Source: Niveispirillum irakense DSM 11586
Lineage (GTDB): Bacteria > Pseudomonadota > Alphaproteobacteria > Azospirillales > Azospirillaceae
DNA: 64,000 nt
NCBI RefSeq assembly: GCF_000429645.1
Contig: NZ_AUCG01000002.1
Span: forward strand, 62,001-126,000
Reading direction: 5' to 3'
Below the pieces are notes generated by a model. It saw nothing but the letters and a program-made list of their open reading frames with translations. It had not been told where the DNA came from and made no database searches. Shown here one piece after another: positions 5,720 to 21,444 of the stretch. The first letter of the stretch is position 1. Every line of letters starts with the position of its first letter. The position numbers and the translations under genes are program-made.

Positions 5720-8385
5720 CAATTCACCCGTTCATTATCGTCGATATTGCGGGCCAGCACTTCGCGCTTGCCGGCATGGTTGGCCTTGCTGACCACGCCT
5801 TCCTTTTCCATCCGCTCAATCAGGCGGGCAGCGGAATTGTAGCCGATGCGCAGATGGCGCTGGATGAAGCTGGTGGAAGCCTTGCCTTCCCGTGCCACCA
5901 CGGCCACCGCCTGATCATAAAGATCATCGCCGGATGTGCCAGCGCCACCGCCGCCGCCGTCACCGCCGCTGGCTGTGGCGGGGTCGAACTCCTCTTCCTC
6001 TTCCGTCACGGCATCGACATAGGACGGTTCACCCTGCGCCTTCAGGAAGCGGACGACCTGTTCCACCTCGTCATCGCGCACGAAGGGACCGTGGACGCGG
6101 GTGATGCGGCCGCCGCCGGCCATGTAGAGCATATCGCCCTGGCCCAGAAGCTGCTCGGCCCCCTGTTCGCCCAGGATGGTGCGGCTGTCGATCTTGCTGG
6201 TGACCTGGAAGCTGATGCGGGTGGGGAAATTGGCCTTGATCGTGCCGGTGATCACGTCCACCGACGGGCGCTGCGTCGCCATGATCAGGTGGATGCCGGC
6301 GGCACGCGCCATCTGGGCCAAGCGCTGGATGGCCGCCTCGATATCCTTGCCGGCCACCAGCATCAGATCTGCCATTTCGTCCACGATCACGACGATATAG
6401 GGCAGTTCCGACAGGTCCATCGGCTGCTCTTCCTCGATCGGCTTGCCCGTATCGGGGTCATAGCCGGTCTGGACGCGGCGGGTCAGGATTTCGCCGTTGT
6501 CGCGCGCTTCCTTCAGGCGGGCGTTGTAGCCATCGATATTGCGCACGCCCAGCTTGGACATGTTGCGATACCGGTCCTCCATCTCCCGCACTGCCCATTT
6601 AAGCGCCACAACCGCTTTTTTCGGATCGGTGACGACGGGGGCCAGCAGATGCGGGATGCCTTCATAGATCGACAGTTCCAGCATCTTGGGATCGACCATG
6701 ATGAAGCGGCACTTGTCCGGCGGCATCCGGTACAGAAGCGACAGGATCATGGTGTTGATGGCGACGGACTTGCCCGAACCGGTGGTGCCGGCCACCAGAA
6801 GGTGGGGCATGCGGGCCAGATCGGCGATGATCGGCCCGCCGCCAATATCCTTGCCCAGAACCAGCGGCAGCTTCTGCTGGCTCTTCTCATAGGCGTCCGA
6901 CATCAGCAATTCGCGCAGGTAAACGGTTTCGCGACGCTGGTTCGGCATTTCAATGCCGATGGCGTTGCGGCCTGCCACCACAGCCACACGCACGGAAACC
7001 GCGCTCATGGACCGCGCGATATCGTCAGCCAGGCCGATGACGCGGGCGGATTTCAGGCCGGGGGCGGGTTCCAGCTCATACAGGGTGACGACGGGGCCGG
7101 GGCTGACCTTCACGATCTGGCCACGGATGCCGTAATCCTCCAGCACGCCTTCCAGCATCTCCGCATTGCGCTGAAGCGAGGCTTCATCCATGGCGGGGCC
7201 GGCGCCGGGCGGCGGTAGTTGCATGATCTCCACGGGCGGAAGCTCATGTTCGCTGCGCACTTCCGGTTCCAGATGCAGGGCAGGCTGGCGGGCCTTCTCC
7301 ATCTTGCGGGCGACATCGGGCAGGATCGGCTTGGGCCCGCGTTCCACCACGGGGGCGGGACGGCGGCGGTCATCCCCGGCGGCAACCGGGGCGGGGCGGG
7401 GAACATCCACCTGCAGCATCGGCTGCGGCGACGGCGCCATGGCAGGATCGCCGGCGGGGGGAACGGAAAGGCTTGGTGCGGTGCGGGGCGCGGCCTGAGC
7501 GCCGGCAGCGGCCCCGGCAGCCGCCCGACGGGTGGGCAGGCGGGTGCGCAGCGCCTCGGCCTGGCGCCGCAGCCTTGCCATCAGCCCTTCGCTGGGGATC
7601 GCCGCCGGTCCGCCGGCAGGGGCAGTTTCCATGGCGGGGGACCAGCGGCCGCCCCCCATGGCCACCTGCTGCTGCTGGCGCGTGGTGGCGGTGGCCGACC
7701 GCTGGGCGGCGCGGTTGGCAAACCACAGGCGGGCGGTGCGGATATTCTCCCGCAGGTCACGCAGCGGGATGGCCAGTGCGGCCAGCAACGCCAGCAGGAA
7801 GGGCCCCAGCAGCACAAGCGTCAGCAGGGGCAGGGCCGCCTTACCGGCAAAATCGCCAAACAGCTTGGCCAGGGGGTTGACCAGCATCAGCCCGGCGCTG
7901 CCGCCATTCGTTGAATTGCCGGTGACGGCGATCAGCAGCATGGCCGCCAGCAGCACGGCCACCAGGGCCGCCGGCACCCGCCACGGCCAGTTGGGGATGG
8001 GCCGGTGACGGAACAGGGAAAGGCCCCAGCCGGCCAGGACCAGCACGATGACAAAGGCGCCCATGCCCAAAGTCTGCCACAGCACATCGGACAGATAAGC
8101 GCCGGGCAGGCCCATCATGTTGCGGATGGCCACCGTCTCGTCCGGTACCGCCGTGCTCCAGGACGGGTCGCGGGAATGATAGCTGGCCAAGGCTGCGGTC
8201 AGGGCCAGGGCCAGCCCGACCACGCCCAGCCCGGCAATCTCACGAAGCCGGCGCTTCAGGAAGATCGCGGTCCCTTCCGGCAATAGCCGAGTCTTGCGCC
8301 GGCCGCCCCCCGTGGCGGGTGCTGGCGCGCCAGATGCCGGCCGGCGACCGGATGGGGCGGGGCGGGGGGAGGGACGGCTCGGCAT
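5719..8385 (-). CDS. ftsK: DNA translocase FtsK
   Basis: 888 residues. The N-terminus after a basic, proline-rich stretch holds about four membrane segments ([72 protein letters not shown]). A Pro/Ala-rich linker leads to the RecA-like motor with Walker A GTTGSGKS near residue 535 and Walker [14 protein letters not shown]. The final 65 residues form the gamma winged helix that reads KOPS sequences ([13 protein letters not shown]). It pumps chromosome termini at the closing septum and triggers XerCD. It starts 42 bases after the aminotransferase, so glnZ-aminotransferase-ftsK are in line. Downstream lies hipBA rather than the lolA gene often found after alphaproteobacterial ftsK. Confidence 0.96.
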
Positions 8386-10646: not shown

Positions 10647-11921
10647 ATGCCGCCAAGAACGCCCAATTCTTCATCCATGGAAACGCAGATCCCCCCCTCC
10701 CTGATCCCGGACCATGCGGGCGATGTGATCATCGTCGGCGGTGGTCTTGCCGGTCTCAGCCTCGCCTGTGCCCTGGGCACGGCGGGCGTCGCCACCCTGG
10801 TCGTTGATCGCGACCCGCCGGAACAGCAGCTTGAACCGGAATTTGATGGCCGGACAACGGCCATTTCCTATGGTTCCGCCATGGTGCTGGAAGGGGCGGG
10901 CATCTGGCGCCATCTGGACGGCCAGGTGGGCCCGATGCTGGATATCCGCGTCACCGACCAGAACAGCCCGCTCTTCATGCATTATGATCACCGCGATGTC
11001 GGTGATCAGCCCTTTGGCTGGATCATCGAGAATCGGCATCTGCGTCAGGCCCTGTTCCGCCGGCTGGCGGAATTGGACAGCGTTACCCACATCACACCCG
11101 TGGCGGTGAAGGGGATGGCGCGCGATGGCAGCGGTGTACTGGTGACGCTGGAGGATGGCCGCCGCCTGTCGGGCCGGCTGGTCGTGGGCGCGGATGGGAA
11201 GAAGAGTTTCTGCCGCGAGCATGCCGGCATCCGGCAGATCGCCTGGACCTATCAGCAGCACGCCATCGTCTGCAGTATTGAGCATGAGAAGCCGCATGGC
11301 GAGGTAGCGGTGGAACTGTTCCTGCCCGCTGGCCCGTTCGCCATGCTGCCGCTGGCCGGTGGCCACCGCACCAGCATCGTGTGGAGTGAGCGGTCGGACA
11401 TGGTGGATTTCTATATGGGCCTGCCGCCGGAGCGGTTCCAGGCCGAGCTTCAGTCCCGGGTGGGTGACTGGCTGGGCAGGGTGACGCCGATCGCCGGTCG
11501 CTGGGCCTATCCGCTGGGTCTCAGCCATGCCGAACGCTATGTCGATCAGCGCCTTGCCCTGGTCAGCGAAAGCGCCCATGGCATGCACCCGATTGCCGGC
11601 CAGGGGCTGAATGTCGGTATCCGCGATGTCGCGGCCCTGGCCGAGGTGGTGGTGGATGCGCTGCGCCTGGGGCTGGACCCTGGCGCGCCGGATGTGCTGG
11701 AACGGTATCAGCGCTGGCGCCGCTTCGACACGGTGGCCCTGCTGGCGGCGACCGACACGCTGACCCGTCTGTTCAGCAACAATATCGGCCCGCTGGCGCT
11801 GGCCCGGCGTCTGGGCCTTGCCACCGTCAACCGCCTGCCGCCGATGAAAAAGCTGTTCATGCGCCACGCCATGGGCATTGTGGGCGAACTGCCGCGTCTG
11901 GTGCGGGGAGAGGCGCTGTAA
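10647..11921 (+). CDS. FAD-dependent aromatic hydroxylase, UbiH/COQ6 family
   Basis: 424 residues from ATG 10647, which has GAAGG about ten bases upstream; ATG 10677 (414 residues) is an alternative, and the longer frame back to 10509 lacks support. The dinucleotide fold DVIIVGGGLAGLSLACALG binds FAD. The middle DG motif is LVVGADGKKSFCRE. The C-terminal motif is VSESAHGMHPIAGQGLNVG, in which the usual GDAAH is SESAH but the HPxxGQGxN flavin loop is intact. The family hydroxylates the ubiquinone ring (UbiH, UbiF, UbiI, UbiL); the ring position is not predictable. It is divergent from glnZ. A multi-hairpin element begins two bases after its stop. Confidence 0.87.
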   Translation: MPPRTPNSSSMETQIPPSLIPDHAGDVIIVGGGLAGLSLACALGTAGVATLVVDRDPPEQQLEPEFDGRTTAISYGSAMVLEGAGIWRHLDGQVGPMLDIRVTDQNSPLFMHYDHRDVGDQPFGWIIENRHLRQALFRRLAELDSVTHITPVAVKGMARDGSGVLVTLEDGRRLSGRLVVGADGKKSFCREHAGIRQIAWTYQQHAIVCSIEHEKPHGEVAVELFLPAGPFAMLPLAGGHRTSIVWSERSDMVDFYMGLPPERFQAELQSRVGDWLGRVTPIAGRWAYPLGLSHAERYVDQRLALVSESAHGMHPIAGQGLNVGIRDVAALAEVVVDALRLGLDPGAPDVLERYQRWRRFDTVALLAATDTLTRLFSNNIGPLALARRLGLATVNRLPPMKKLFMRHAMGIVGELPRLVRGEAL

Positions 11922-12074
11922 TACCAATCCGCCGAGGGTTTGACCCTTGGCGGATTGGAGGTCGGCGACCGCCGACCCGCGCCACATGGCGCATAGCCAA
12001 GGGCGCGGATGCGCCCGCCCGGCGCCTGAGGGAGCGCAAATTTCCCTGGATCGGTCACGATCCAGGGAAATTAG
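11922..12074 (+). repeat. Multi-hairpin element, copy 1 (3' of the UbiH-family gene)
   Basis: It begins two bases after the stop codon. In order it contains a 15-bp stem (11924-11938 with 11944-11958), GGTCGGCG-AC-CGCCGACC (11960-11977), GCGCCA-CA-TGGCGC (11979-11992), GGGCGC-GGAT-GCGCCC within an exact 39-base match to copy 2 (11995-12033), and a perfect 15-bp stem with loop GTCA (12039-12072). No T-run follows any stem, so it is not an ordinary terminator. The second copy lies between scoA and scoB. Confidence 0.85.
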
Positions 12075-12105
12075 TATAAAAGCGCCTCCCCCCACGGGGG
12101 ATATG

Positions 12106-12138
12106 AAAAAGGCGGGCCGGTCATCCGGTCCGCCTTTT
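12106..12138 (-). terminator. Rho-independent terminator of accA
   Basis: Read on the minus strand just past the accA stop, a GC-rich stem (GGCGGACCGG with CCGGCCCGCC, one wobble or mismatch) around a four-base loop is followed by TTTTT. It has the right place and form for accA termination. Confidence 0.8.
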
Positions 12139-12169
12139 GCATTTGTCGGCTTCAGGAGAGAGAAAGGCC

Positions 12170-13123
12170 TCAGCTCAGGCCCTTCTGCCCCATATCCAGG
12201 AATTTCTGGCGGCGGTTATGGCGCAGCGTGCCACCATCCTGCCCGCGCAGACCTTCCAGCGCGTCTTCAATCGCGTTGCCCAGGGCGTGCATCGTCTCTT
12301 CCCGACGGCGATGGGCGCCACCGATCGGTTCCTGCACCACACGGTCAATGACGGCCAGATCCTTCAGATCCTGTGCCGTCAGGCGCAGGGCCTGGGCGGC
12401 ATCGGCGGCATTGGACGCTGAGCGCCACAGGATGCCGGCGCAGCCTTCCGGCGAGATCACCGAATAGATCGAATGTTCCAGCATCAGCACGCGGTCAGCG
12501 GCGGCAATCGCAATCGCCCCGCCCGACCCGCCTTCACCGATGATGGTGGACACCATCGGCACCTTCAGGCGCAGACAGGTCTCAATCGACTTGGCGATGG
12601 CTTCAGCCTGGCCGCGCTCTTCCGCCGACACGCCGGGGAAGGCACCAGCCGTATCGACCAGCGAGATCACCGGCAGGTGGAACCGGTCGGCCATCTGCAT
12701 CAGGCGCTGGGCCTTGCGATAACCCTCGGGCTTGGCCATGCCGAAATTGTGCCGTACGCGGCTTTCGGTATCGTTGCCCTTTTCCTGGCCGATCACGACC
12801 ACGGAACGGCCGCGGAAACGGCCCAGCCCGCCGACAATCGCCCGATCCTCGCCAAACAGCCGGTCACCGGCCAGGGGCGTGAAATCAGTGATCAGCGAAT
12901 GGATGTAATCCAGGCAATGCGGCCGGTTCGGGTGGCGAGCCACCTGCACCTTCTGCGCCGGGGTCAGCTTGGCGTAGGTGGAGCGCAACAGCTTGTCCAC
13001 CTTGTCCTGCAGCTTCTTGACCTCGTCGGCGATGTTGAGATCGCCGCCATCGGCCAGATGGCGCAGTTCCTCGATCTTGGATTCCAGTTCCGCGATCGGC
13101 TTTTCAAATTCAAGGAAGTGCAT
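12170..13123 (-). CDS. accA: Acetyl-CoA carboxylase carboxyltransferase subunit alpha
   Basis: 317 residues from the ATG at 13123 ([20 protein letters not shown]), the family's normal start and length. Upstream in-frame starts only add low-complexity sequence. The crotonase-like carboxyltransferase core is intact: [73 protein letters not shown] and [10 protein letters not shown]. With AccD it transfers carboxyl from biotin on AccB to acetyl-CoA, giving malonyl-CoA for fatty-acid synthesis in the cytoplasm. accB, accC and accD are not in the window. It ends at a strong terminator and is separated from scoB by 180 bases with no visible gene. Confidence 0.96.
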
Positions 13124-13303
13124 CGGGGTGATGGATTCTGCCCTTTGATGAAGCCGGCTGCTTAACATAAGTGCGACCGGGGGGCCACCCTGTTCCTGCG
13201 CAGGGCAGCGGTGTAGCACCGTATGCAGCCTGACTGGCGGTAAGTCGGGTGGAGGGCGGGGGCATGGCTTGGCGCCGCCCCGCAGCCCTCCACCCGAAGC
13301 GGA

Positions 13304-13963
13304 TCAGAGGGCGACCGTGAAGTCAGCCTCTGTCTTGCTCTTGATCTCTTCCACCGTCACGCCGGGGGCCAGTTCCACCAGCTTCATGCCGCCATCGCCA
13401 TGCTTGTCGATGGCAAAGACGCCCAGATCCGTAACCACCAGATCCACCACCCGCGTGCCGGTCAGGGGCAGGGAACAGGCCTTCAGCAGCTTGGGTTCCA
13501 GGGCACCGGTCTTTTTGTCGATGGCGCAATGCTCCATCACGACCACGACCTTTTTGACACCGGCGACCAGATCCATGGCGCCGCCCATGCCTTTGACCAT
13601 CTTGCCGGGGATCATCCAGTTGGCCAGATCGCCATTGGCGGCCACCTGCATGGCGCCCAGCACGGACAGGTCGATATGCCCGCCGCGGATCATGGCGAAG
13701 CTGTCGGCACTGCTGAAATAGCTGCTATAGGGCAGTTCGGTGATGGTCTGCTTGCCGGCATTGATCAGGTCGGGGTCTTCCTCTCCCTCGAAGGGGAAGG
13801 GGCCCATGCCCAGCATGCCGTTTTCAGACTGCAGGGTCACCTGCATGCCCTCGGGGATGTAATTCGCCACCAGGGTCGGGATGCCGATGCCCAGATTCAC
13901 ATAAAAGCCGTCGCGCAGTTCACGCGCTGCACGGGCGGCCATCTCGTCACGGGTCCAAGCCAT
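13304..13963 (-). CDS. scoB: 3-oxoacid CoA-transferase subunit B
   Basis: 219 residues, full length. It carries the subunit B active site [10 protein letters not shown] with the glutamate that forms the CoA thioester, plus [17 protein letters not shown] and [19 protein letters not shown]. With ScoA it moves CoA from succinyl-CoA to acetoacetate, allowing ketone-body or polyhydroxybutyrate use. The start at 13963 has AAGGAG eight bases upstream. It follows scoA by 120 bases, and that spacer is filled by copy 2 of the multi-hairpin element, leaving only the ribosome site between element and gene. Confidence 0.95.
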
Positions 13964-13979
13964 TTTACTGTCTCCTTGT

Positions 13980-14083
13980 TCCCTCAGGCGCCGGGCGGGC
14001 GCATCCGCGCCCTTGGCTTGCGCGCGATGCCGCGCGGGCCGGCGGTCGCCGGCCTCCCGACGCCCGCCGGGGCGGGCATCGGG
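13980..14083 (-). repeat. Multi-hairpin element, copy 2 (between scoA and scoB)
   Basis: On the minus strand it begins at the base after the scoA stop. It has a 13-bp stem with one mismatch (14071-14083 with 14056-14068), GGCCGGCG-AC-CGCCGGCC (14037-14054), CGCGCG-GCAT-CGCGCG (14021-14036), and the 39 bases identical to copy 1 (13980-14018). It lacks the last hairpin of copy 1. Compared with copy 1, hairpins 2 and 3 differ in sequence yet remain paired. Confidence 0.85.
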
Positions 14084-14785
14084 TTAATCGCGCTTGCGCG
14101 TGGTGCGTTGCTCAATGCGCTTCTCGTGGTTGCCCTCGATGATGCGCTGCACGAAAATGCCGGGTGTATGGACATGGTCGGGGTCAATGGTGCCCACATT
14201 GACCAGTTGCTCCACCTCCGCCACCGTCACCTTGCCGGCCATGGCCATCATCGGATTGAAGTTCCGTGCGGTCTTCCGGTAGATCAGGTTGCCTTGCGTG
14301 TCGCCCTTCCAGGCCTTCACGATGGACAGGTCGGCGCGCAGCCAGCTTTCCATCACATAGGTCTCACCGTCGAATTCCCGCAATTCCTTGCCTTCCGCCA
14401 CCAGCGTGCCCACGCCGGTCTTGGTGAAGAAGGCGGGGATGCCGGCCCCGCCGGCGCGGATGCGCTCAGCCAGGGTGCCCTGCGGGTTGAATTCCAACGC
14501 CAGCTCGCCCGACAGATATTGCTGCGCGAACAGCTTGTTCTCCCCCACATAGGAGGAGACCATTTTCGCGATCTGCTTGGTTTCCAGCAACTGGCCCAGG
14601 CCGAAGCCATCCACGCCGGCATTGTTGGAAATCACCGTCAGGCCCTTGACGCCGCTTTCCTTGATCGCGGCAATCAGGTTTTCCGGGATGCCGCACAGGC
14701 CGAAGCCCCCGGCCATGATGGTCATGTCGTCGCGCAGCAGCCCTGCCAGGGCCGATACGGCATCGGTATAGACTTTCTTGCTCAT
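14084..14785 (-). CDS. scoA: 3-oxoacid CoA-transferase subunit A
   Basis: 233 residues, complete. The CoA-transferase signature is present: DGMTIMAGGFGLCG-like DDMTIMAGGFGLCGIPENLI, then SNNAGVDGFGLGQLL and GAGIPAFFTKTGVGT. It pairs with ScoB, encoded next on the same strand. The start is MSKKVYTDAV at 14785. A promoter with a dyad in its spacer lies about 50 bases upstream (14835-14863). It is divergent from the marC-family gene. Confidence 0.95.
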   Translation of the reverse strand: MSKKVYTDAVSALAGLLRDDMTIMAGGFGLCGIPENLIAAIKESGVKGLTVISNNAGVDGFGLGQLLETKQIAKMVSSYVGENKLFAQQYLSGELALEFNPQGTLAERIRAGGAGIPAFFTKTGVGTLVAEGKELREFDGETYVMESWLRADLSIVKAWKGDTQGNLIYRKTARNFNPMMAMAGKVTVAEVEQLVNVGTIDPDHVHTPGIFVQRIIEGNHEKRIEQRTTRKRD

Positions 14786-21253: not shown

Positions 21254-21328
21254 GCGGGCGTAGCTCAGGGGTAGAGCACAACCTTGCCAAGGTTGGGGTC
21301 GAGGGTTCGAATCCCTTCGCCCGCTCCA
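21254..21328 (+). tRNA. tRNA-Gly (GCC), copy 1
   Basis: 75 bases including an encoded CCA. Acceptor GCGGGCG pairs with CGCCCGC. The D-loop is TAGCTCAGGGGTAGAGC, the anticodon arm AACCTTGCCAAGGTT has GCC in the loop, and the T-arm GAGGGTTCGAATCCCTT is normal. Confidence 0.97.
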
Positions 21329-21369: not shown

Positions 21370-21444
21370 GCGGGCGTAGCTCAGGGGTAGAGCACAACCT
21401 TGCCAAGGTTGGGGTCGAGGGTTCGAATCCCTTCGCCCGCTCCA
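21370..21444 (+). tRNA. tRNA-Gly (GCC), copy 2
   Basis: Base-for-base identical to the copy at 21254, 41 bases downstream of it, also with encoded CCA. The pair is probably cut from one transcript ending at the hairpin at 21470. Confidence 0.97.

Follow-up and report, generated by a model that had tools for sequence, protein, structure and literature searches.

The nearest published kinds of repeat to the element described here are YPAL, ERIC, the bcr repeats and Br-REP1, each taken from a part of the source cited. YPAL and ERIC are MITE-like palindromic repeats of Yersinia and other enterobacteria, which form stem-loops, lie between genes and are flanked by a short duplication (PMC2759123, in part); ERIC at gene 3' ends affects transcripts (PMC10969869, in part). 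The repeats bcr1 to bcr18 of Bacillus cereus occur in UTRs and operon gaps, bcr1-3 being called MITE-like and bcr10 and bcr18 having a conserved secondary structure (PMC3446304, in part). Br-REP1 of Bradyrhizobium consists of three palindromes, of which the central one occurs at about 200 sites, and is found in overlapping 3'-UTRs of convergent genes (PMC5082802, in part). The GTAG/CGTC REPs lie mostly between convergent or unidirectional genes and often touch stop codons, and G-T pairs have been noted in them (PMC3733652, in part).

The present element, which when complete measures about 155 bp and has five hairpins, unpaired motifs that are conserved and the ends TACCAA...TTGGTA, resembles YPAL and ERIC in being short and protein-less, in its stable stem-loops, in lying between genes and in its short target duplication, a likeness of description and not of sequence; the duplication is TA in YPAL/ERIC and TNA here (PMC2759123, in part). 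Unlike them, the element has a core of several stems and joints that is conserved, with covariation seen throughout a class. The bcr repeats belong to another phylum and show MITE-like and RNA-like traits in separate families, whereas the element combines both (PMC3446304, in part). Br-REP1 is likewise an alphaproteobacterial palindromic repeat at convergent gene ends, but its central palindrome is, by eye, unlike the element's hairpins, and the part of the paper cited mentions no target duplication for it (PMC5082802). The GTAG/CGTC REPs share the gene context but are single hairpins of 20-40 bp (PMC3733652, in part), and the GTAG class is tied to RAYT, which had no match at E<=1e-5 in 11 genomes of the element's genus. 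Among the papers listed, a search of the open-licence literature found no description of this repeat. It is probably a new, structure-conserved member of the MITE-like palindromic repeats. A single genus supplies several hundred natural variants of its fold, which should suffice to examine if selection on structure in such bacterial repeats acts through their movement or through the host.

Anatomy and spread of the element

The window, a stretch of 64,000 nucleotides from Niveispirillum irakense DSM 11586, holds two inverted copies, with 39-nt arms (11995-12033 and 13980-14018) that are 100% complementary and a second pair of arms (11957-11992 and 14022-14057) that is 86% complementary. With up to three mismatches allowed, the 33-nt core is found at these two places only in the window, against a mean of 0.00 in 100 shuffles, which excludes a chance match. 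Copy 1 is a full element of 155 bp, TACCAA...TTAGTA, on the plus strand (11922..12076), flanked by TAA on both sides: the left TAA (11919..11921, plus strand) is at once the stop codon of a UbiH-family gene and the left copy of the 3-bp TNA target duplication, of which the right TAA (12077..12079, plus strand) is the second copy. Within it, all on the plus strand, follow the outer hairpin 1, which holds most of the left end (11924..11958), hairpin 2, GGTCGGCG-AC-CGCCGACC (11960..11977), hairpin 3 (11979..11992), the joint ATAGCCAA (11993..12000; family motif AAGCCAAG, the last G of which is the first base of hairpin 4), hairpin 4 with a GGAT loop (12001..12016), the conserved stretch GCCCGGCG-CC-TGAGGGA (12017..12033), and the outer hairpin 5 with the apex GATCGGTCACGATC (12039..12072), before the right end. 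Copy 2 (13980..14083, minus strand) lies between scoB and the scoA stop codon TAA, which reads TTA on the plus strand (14084..14086, minus strand). It consists of hairpin 1, with a sequence different from that of copy 1 (14056..14083), hairpin 2 (14037..14054), hairpin 3 (14021..14036), hairpin 4 (13997..14012), the conserved joints and, 16 nt before the scoB ATG, the TGAGGGA motif (13980..13986), all on the minus strand. Hairpin 5 and the TACCAA/TTGGTA ends are absent from it, and TGAGGGA runs straight into the scoB leader. The gene names are backed by NCBIfam families (UbiH/COQ6 subfamily, accA, pcaJ/scoB and pcaI/scoA).

An earlier note on this DNA, made from its letters alone, had described two copies that share 39 identical bases, start at gene stops and differ in hairpin 2 by a base-pair swap (GGTCGGCG/CGCCGACC against GGCCGGCG/CGCCGGCC). 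These observations were borne out, copy 1 beginning right after its TAA and copy 2 right after the scoA stop; the four hairpins that it had assigned to each copy are right for copy 2, which has the first four, but not for copy 1, which has five. It had also held that neither is a normal terminator, and indeed our terminator scan found no intrinsic terminator (hairpin, then T-run) at either window copy, its one site lying away from both at 13188-13173 on the minus strand. Downstream of copy 1 there is an ordinary GC-rich hairpin (12103-12142) with TTTTG in its right arm. The Rfam search of the window returned two tRNAs only, and that of five loci at E<=5 gave two matches below the gathering score, both outside the element; a known RNA family is ruled out, the element having no Rfam match above the gathering score in the window or at the five loci. 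The window also contains two adjacent tRNA-Gly(gcc) genes (21254-21328 and 21370-21444).

BLAST with copy 1 found 47 pieces in its own genome (5.45 Mb), and 14 aligned copies showed a common plan, several being incomplete at one end. From 22 copies we built a covariance model of the core, R1, with 80 positions and 21 pairs. The search of genome and relatives with such a model, which the earlier note had proposed, gave 68 core matches at E<=1 in the own genome, 95 in the congener G005 and at least 149 in the congener G009 (149 of 150 scored candidates), and core matches ranged from 15 to at least 118 in each of 11 genomes of the genus. R1 matched in 23 of 40 genomes, the own one included, and in a class sample of 240 genomes, with at most 19 candidates scored per genome, 16 matched at E<=1e-6, counting the own genome and G005. 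By eye, 17 places from 13 other genomes of the class have AGCCAAG in 15 cases, GCCCGGCG in 14 and TGAGG in all 17; Nitrospirillum viridazoti (L033) has three weaker matches to the core model. Detailed study covered the 50 best of the 68 copies in the own genome and the 80 best of the 95 in G005, and the G009 loci read are the subset of its at least 149 matches brought by several searches. A phage origin is ruled out, copy 1 having no match among 50,697 phage records; plasmid records gave two matches of copy 1, both from Niveispirillum cyanobacteriorum. Tandem pairs, a few to some tens of bases apart, were seen at L371:161-324, L151:1501-1669 and G001:C20:19083-19273. At contig ends of the own genome (C2, C3, C16; L002 / L016 / L021) copies are cut by a shared sequence starting ATACCGTGTTTGCAGTC, which is probably another insertion sequence that broke the assembly.

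Ends, target duplication and possible movers

We consider it probable that this is a mobile element of the MITE-like kind, about 155 bp long and coding for no protein, whose five-hairpin structure includes a structure-constrained core and which would be moved in trans by a putative transposase. The ends and the duplication were compared in 164 copies (50 from the own genome, 80 from G005 and 34 others, with L168 and L234, and L145 and L233, being the same places). Ends TACCAA/TTGGTA within the allowed mismatch were recognised on both sides of 37 copies; since the other 127, including 74 of the 80 in G005, lack one or both of them, only a minority of the copies gives evidence of mobility by such ends. 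Identical 3-mers flank 27 of the 37 two-ended copies (26 of 36 after dropping the repeated locus), and when the comparison was shifted by -6, -3, 3, 6 and 9 bases the identical 3-mers numbered 0, 0, 0, 1 and 0. As the search favoured T..A at the outer positions, it is the middle base that gives independent evidence of duplication: with T.A on both sides in 33 copies, it matches in 27 (15 A, 5 G, 4 T, 3 C). The two-ended copies are 141-187 bp long (n = 37; 34 of them 144-159) and thus have no coding capacity for a transposase. In another family (G034, loci L365 and L366) the flanks are, by eye, TTA/TTA and TAA/TAA.

Empty sites were sought for eight loci of the own genome, which gave 19 alignment rows for four loci; three rows were used; in the unused ones the joints have diverged, or there are gaps or other inserts. 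G001 has the gene end of the L140 locus without the element and with one TAA only, reading GAGTAAGGCTTA, and at the L113 locus both G001 and G009 have one TGA at the aligned target place. Short length without coding capacity, a fixed 3-bp TNA duplication and empty sites in relatives, three of the features by which a MITE is recognised, were thus found, and terminal inverted repeats, another such feature, were seen in 37 of the 164 copies. Copy 1 is absent after the ubiH-like stop in 10 of 10 congeners. By eye, G009 carries at this stop a core-like remnant in reverse orientation, and G006 carries a hairpin and, after it, a stretch resembling the first hairpins of L197, a copy of the own genome; G010 has an opposite-orientation element at the stop where L196 of the own genome sits. 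Only one locus pair, L189/L291, out of 50 own and 80 G005 loci has both flanks in common with the element at the same place; L198/L263 share both flanks with the element elsewhere and inverted, and six pairs are one-sided, none of these being counted as shared.

Hairpin 5 and the core do not always go together. As compared by eye, 25 sites of the own genome with the hairpin-5 pattern comprise 11 beside a strong core match, 7 with a weak or deleted core and 7 with none, and 8 such sites in G005 comprise 4 beside a core and 4 not. Ends with a deleted or weak core, at 7 of the 18 element-linked hairpin-5 sites of the own genome, suggest that the core may be dispensable once inserted. On the idea that the core outlasts the ends because it is needed by the host, these counts point neither way. 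Places in the own genome with mainly outer-hairpin matches turned out to be copies that are reduced or interrupted, and most lie next to gene ends. At L316:2107-2330 (C16 of the own genome) a copy after a stop codon has its core split by a small inverted-repeat element with the ends TAGAGTTTGTCAG/CTGACAAACTCTA. Ten G005 copies (L272, L282, L287, L288, L289, L290, L297, L300, L304 and L308) have TAG before the first hairpin (TAG-AGC type, with variants), some of them with the right end GCTCTA by eye; this looks like a different end type, perhaps with a TA target, under the same core.

What might move the element was sought among transposases. No parent IS was found among the six DDE_Tnp_1 (PF01609) loci of the own genome, none of them being bounded by TACCAA...TTGGTA. 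The IS1031 group of IS5 prefers TNA and makes a 3-bp duplication (PMC12016507, in part); it has the target in common with the element but codes for a transposase, which the element does not, and the end of ISLrh, of this group, is unlike TACCAA (PMC12016507, in part). That an IS1031-group transposase moves the element is a guess, which only the TNA target fits. A REP or REPIN moved by a RAYT (Y1 HUH) transposase would account for the REP-like location and for the GGAG found just before hairpin 2 in many copies, but this we regard as very unlikely indeed: Y1_Tnp (PF01797) is matched in 11 of 40 genomes overall, yet at E<=1e-5 in none of the 11 genomes of the genus, each with its many core matches, which at this sensitivity rules out a REP/REPIN linked to an extant RAYT within the genus. 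Nor is HUH transposition known to produce 3-bp target duplications like those of the element.

Placement at gene ends

The TNA duplication accounts for most of the exact placement at stop codons, because TAA and TGA are themselves TNA and the duplication rebuilds the stop. Exact hits at a neighbour's TAA or TGA stop, on either side, were counted in 31 of the 37 two-ended copies (leaving out L168, a copy that has no left TNA and four where a gene call overlaps): there were 18, against 13.9 expected (simulated P = 0.034) from a random choice among the TNA sites of the 31 rebuilt empty gaps. The coincidence thus comes mostly from the target and from the gaps being short; any preference beyond this is small at most. 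The idea of an insertion mechanism that targets stop codons, put forward in the earlier note, survives in a weaker form, as a TNA target that includes TAA and TGA, the excess over expectation being small. This is a simple rule for harmless landing on stop codons. A transposase cutting at TNA would move the element in trans; TAA and TGA would serve as sites with the stop left intact, and the gaps beyond stops would tolerate insertion, adding to the collection at gene 3' ends. YPAL was reportedly located just after stop codons by De Gregorio in 2006.

Genes were called with a dicodon script, not a standard gene finder, and both neighbours were called for 125 of 130 copies: 48 lie between convergent, 66 between co-directional and 11 between divergent genes. 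Of the remaining gaps of 20 bp or more in this DNA (n = 176), 20 are convergent and 46 divergent, so that convergent gaps are enriched among the copies. In co-directional gaps the hairpin-5 side faces the gene end in 37 copies and the hairpin-1 side in 29 (P = 0.39). Copies prefer gene ends, without a preferred direction.

Such a distribution could also arise if the element served the host, its hairpins capping mRNA 3' ends or blocking read-through between convergent genes in either direction, with the host keeping the copies. The convergent enrichment is what this would lead one to expect, and so are the distances from the core end to the opposing stop in G005, 35 of 55 of which are 17 bp or less, so that the core takes up nearly all of some gaps there; in the own genome only 1 of 30 distances is as short. 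Against it stand the unbiased orientation in co-directional gaps, the G-U pairs, which would be expected on the host-transcribed strand if host mRNA were under selection but fall there in 15 cases and not in 17, and the few sites shared between the own genome and G005. Moreover, REPs have the same gene context (PMC3733652, in part), and it can come from promoter avoidance. A role in host 3' ends is, on balance, rather unlikely as an account of the element. The even orientation and the lack of a host-strand wobble bias do not support a general role at mRNA 3' ends, and the RNA 3' end of the preceding gene, which the earlier note had thought the simplest meaning of the structure, is not supported as a rule.

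Fold, covariation and the scoA-scoB copy

The earlier note had inferred selection on structure and had asked for covariation across many copies; this proved strong. In the G005 set (A3, 82 distinct rows) 98.6% of cells are paired, against 78.3% when shuffled, 16 of the 21 pairs have changed in both partners, and a covariation score of 0.450 compares with 0.107 after shuffling and no more than 0.098 after sliding. Copies of the own and other genomes (A4) are 97.7% paired with a score of 0.458 against 0.117 shuffled, and 18 rows from other families (A6) 96.6% paired with 0.420 against 0.093. The three alignments were fitted to the model's structure, which favours that structure, and as the sequences are related the shuffle results are no probabilities; the margin is large nonetheless. 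A MAFFT alignment of 14 copies, made with no structure fitting, has double changes in 23 of 44 predicted pairs. Covariation beyond the controls, as a structured RNA would show, was thus found in A3, A4 and A6, and it supports the claim of selection on structure. The folded shape of the element probably matters, to judge from these sequences, its core being kept by paired compensating mutations. The unpaired joints AAGCCAAG, GCCCGGCG and TGAGGG are conserved; in most stems, less clearly in hairpin 2 of A6, the outermost and innermost pairs vary little and the middle pairs vary. The outer hairpins vary far more than the core, and some copies have other sequences there or none.

One might suppose that the pairing is kept by mutation alone, template switching in palindromes copying one arm onto the other. 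Stems that are near-perfect in every gene context agree with such a process, which, however, predicts neither the conserved joints nor stems with a variable middle and stable outermost and innermost pairs; we hold it to be quite improbable. The wobble pairs are less telling. On the element's plus strand there are 53 G-U against 27 A-C, in related copies found by a model of that same strand; a strand-symmetric hairpin finder gave 101 G-T against 139 A-C within the core, though it ran into loops, 92 against 49 and 69 against 41 on the two sides beside the core, and 262 against 229 for all hairpins (P = 0.15), with opposite signs by region. A strand preference of the wobble pairs is suggestive only.

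To return to the mobile element that we favour, a MITE needs only its ends, so that this reading does not explain the conservation of the inner core. We infer that this conservation serves mobility, the fold being selected chiefly as a property of the element and not as the 3' end of whichever gene precedes it; the folded single strand, DNA or RNA, would be bound by a mobility or host protein. A bolder version, which we think improbable though less so than template switching, is that the five-hairpin core is itself a working part of the mobility machinery, a folded RNA or DNA strand that the element makes and that an enzyme, encoded by the host or by another element, recognises in trans; the whole would be a class-wide, structure-encoded parasite and not an IS in decay. 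This would account for the conserved joints, the free stems and a core that persists across families under partly different ends.

A few copies, such as that between scoA and scoB, may have become part of their locus, and this one may be an exception to the absence of a general 3'-end role; here the earlier note's idea that the element would set the A:B ratio may apply. It is present in four of the 11 genomes of the genus (G000, G009, G006 and G008), with a second, shortened copy in a paralogous locus of G006 (L210), and G019, of another genus, has one of its five core matches in all in the scoA-scoB gap. In these five copies AAGCCAAG, GCCCGGCG and TGAGGG are invariant, stems 1, 3 and 4 differ, by paired changes in the four copies of the genus, and the scoB leader beyond is unalignable. 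Invariant joints with covarying stems and an unalignable tail are in keeping with an element retained by the host, but the other seven of the 11 genomes (G003, G005, G010, G002, G007, G001 and G004) do without the copy, with gaps of 14-41 bp. The pattern would fit either a constraint acting on the locus or insertion more than once at the same stop. As G001 is about as near the own genome as G009 (91.0% and 89.6% at the scoA end), the absence of the copy in G001 requires loss or exchange. In single-sequence folding the four hairpins stay apart in two of four genomes, and in the other two long-range pairings are preferred for part of the core.

For this copy, related species offer a ready comparison of operons with and without it. 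Among 80 other scoAB loci fetched, 76 were readable, and in 65 the gap does not exceed 45 bp; the core model found nothing at E<=0.5 in these gaps. In a Roseomonas mucosa MAG (L043, about 5816-6000) a scoA-scoB gap of 185 bp holds, by eye, a core-like stretch in the opposite orientation, with a weak model score (E 0.2 in a smaller search), which from its sequence would be a separate landing in the same gap.
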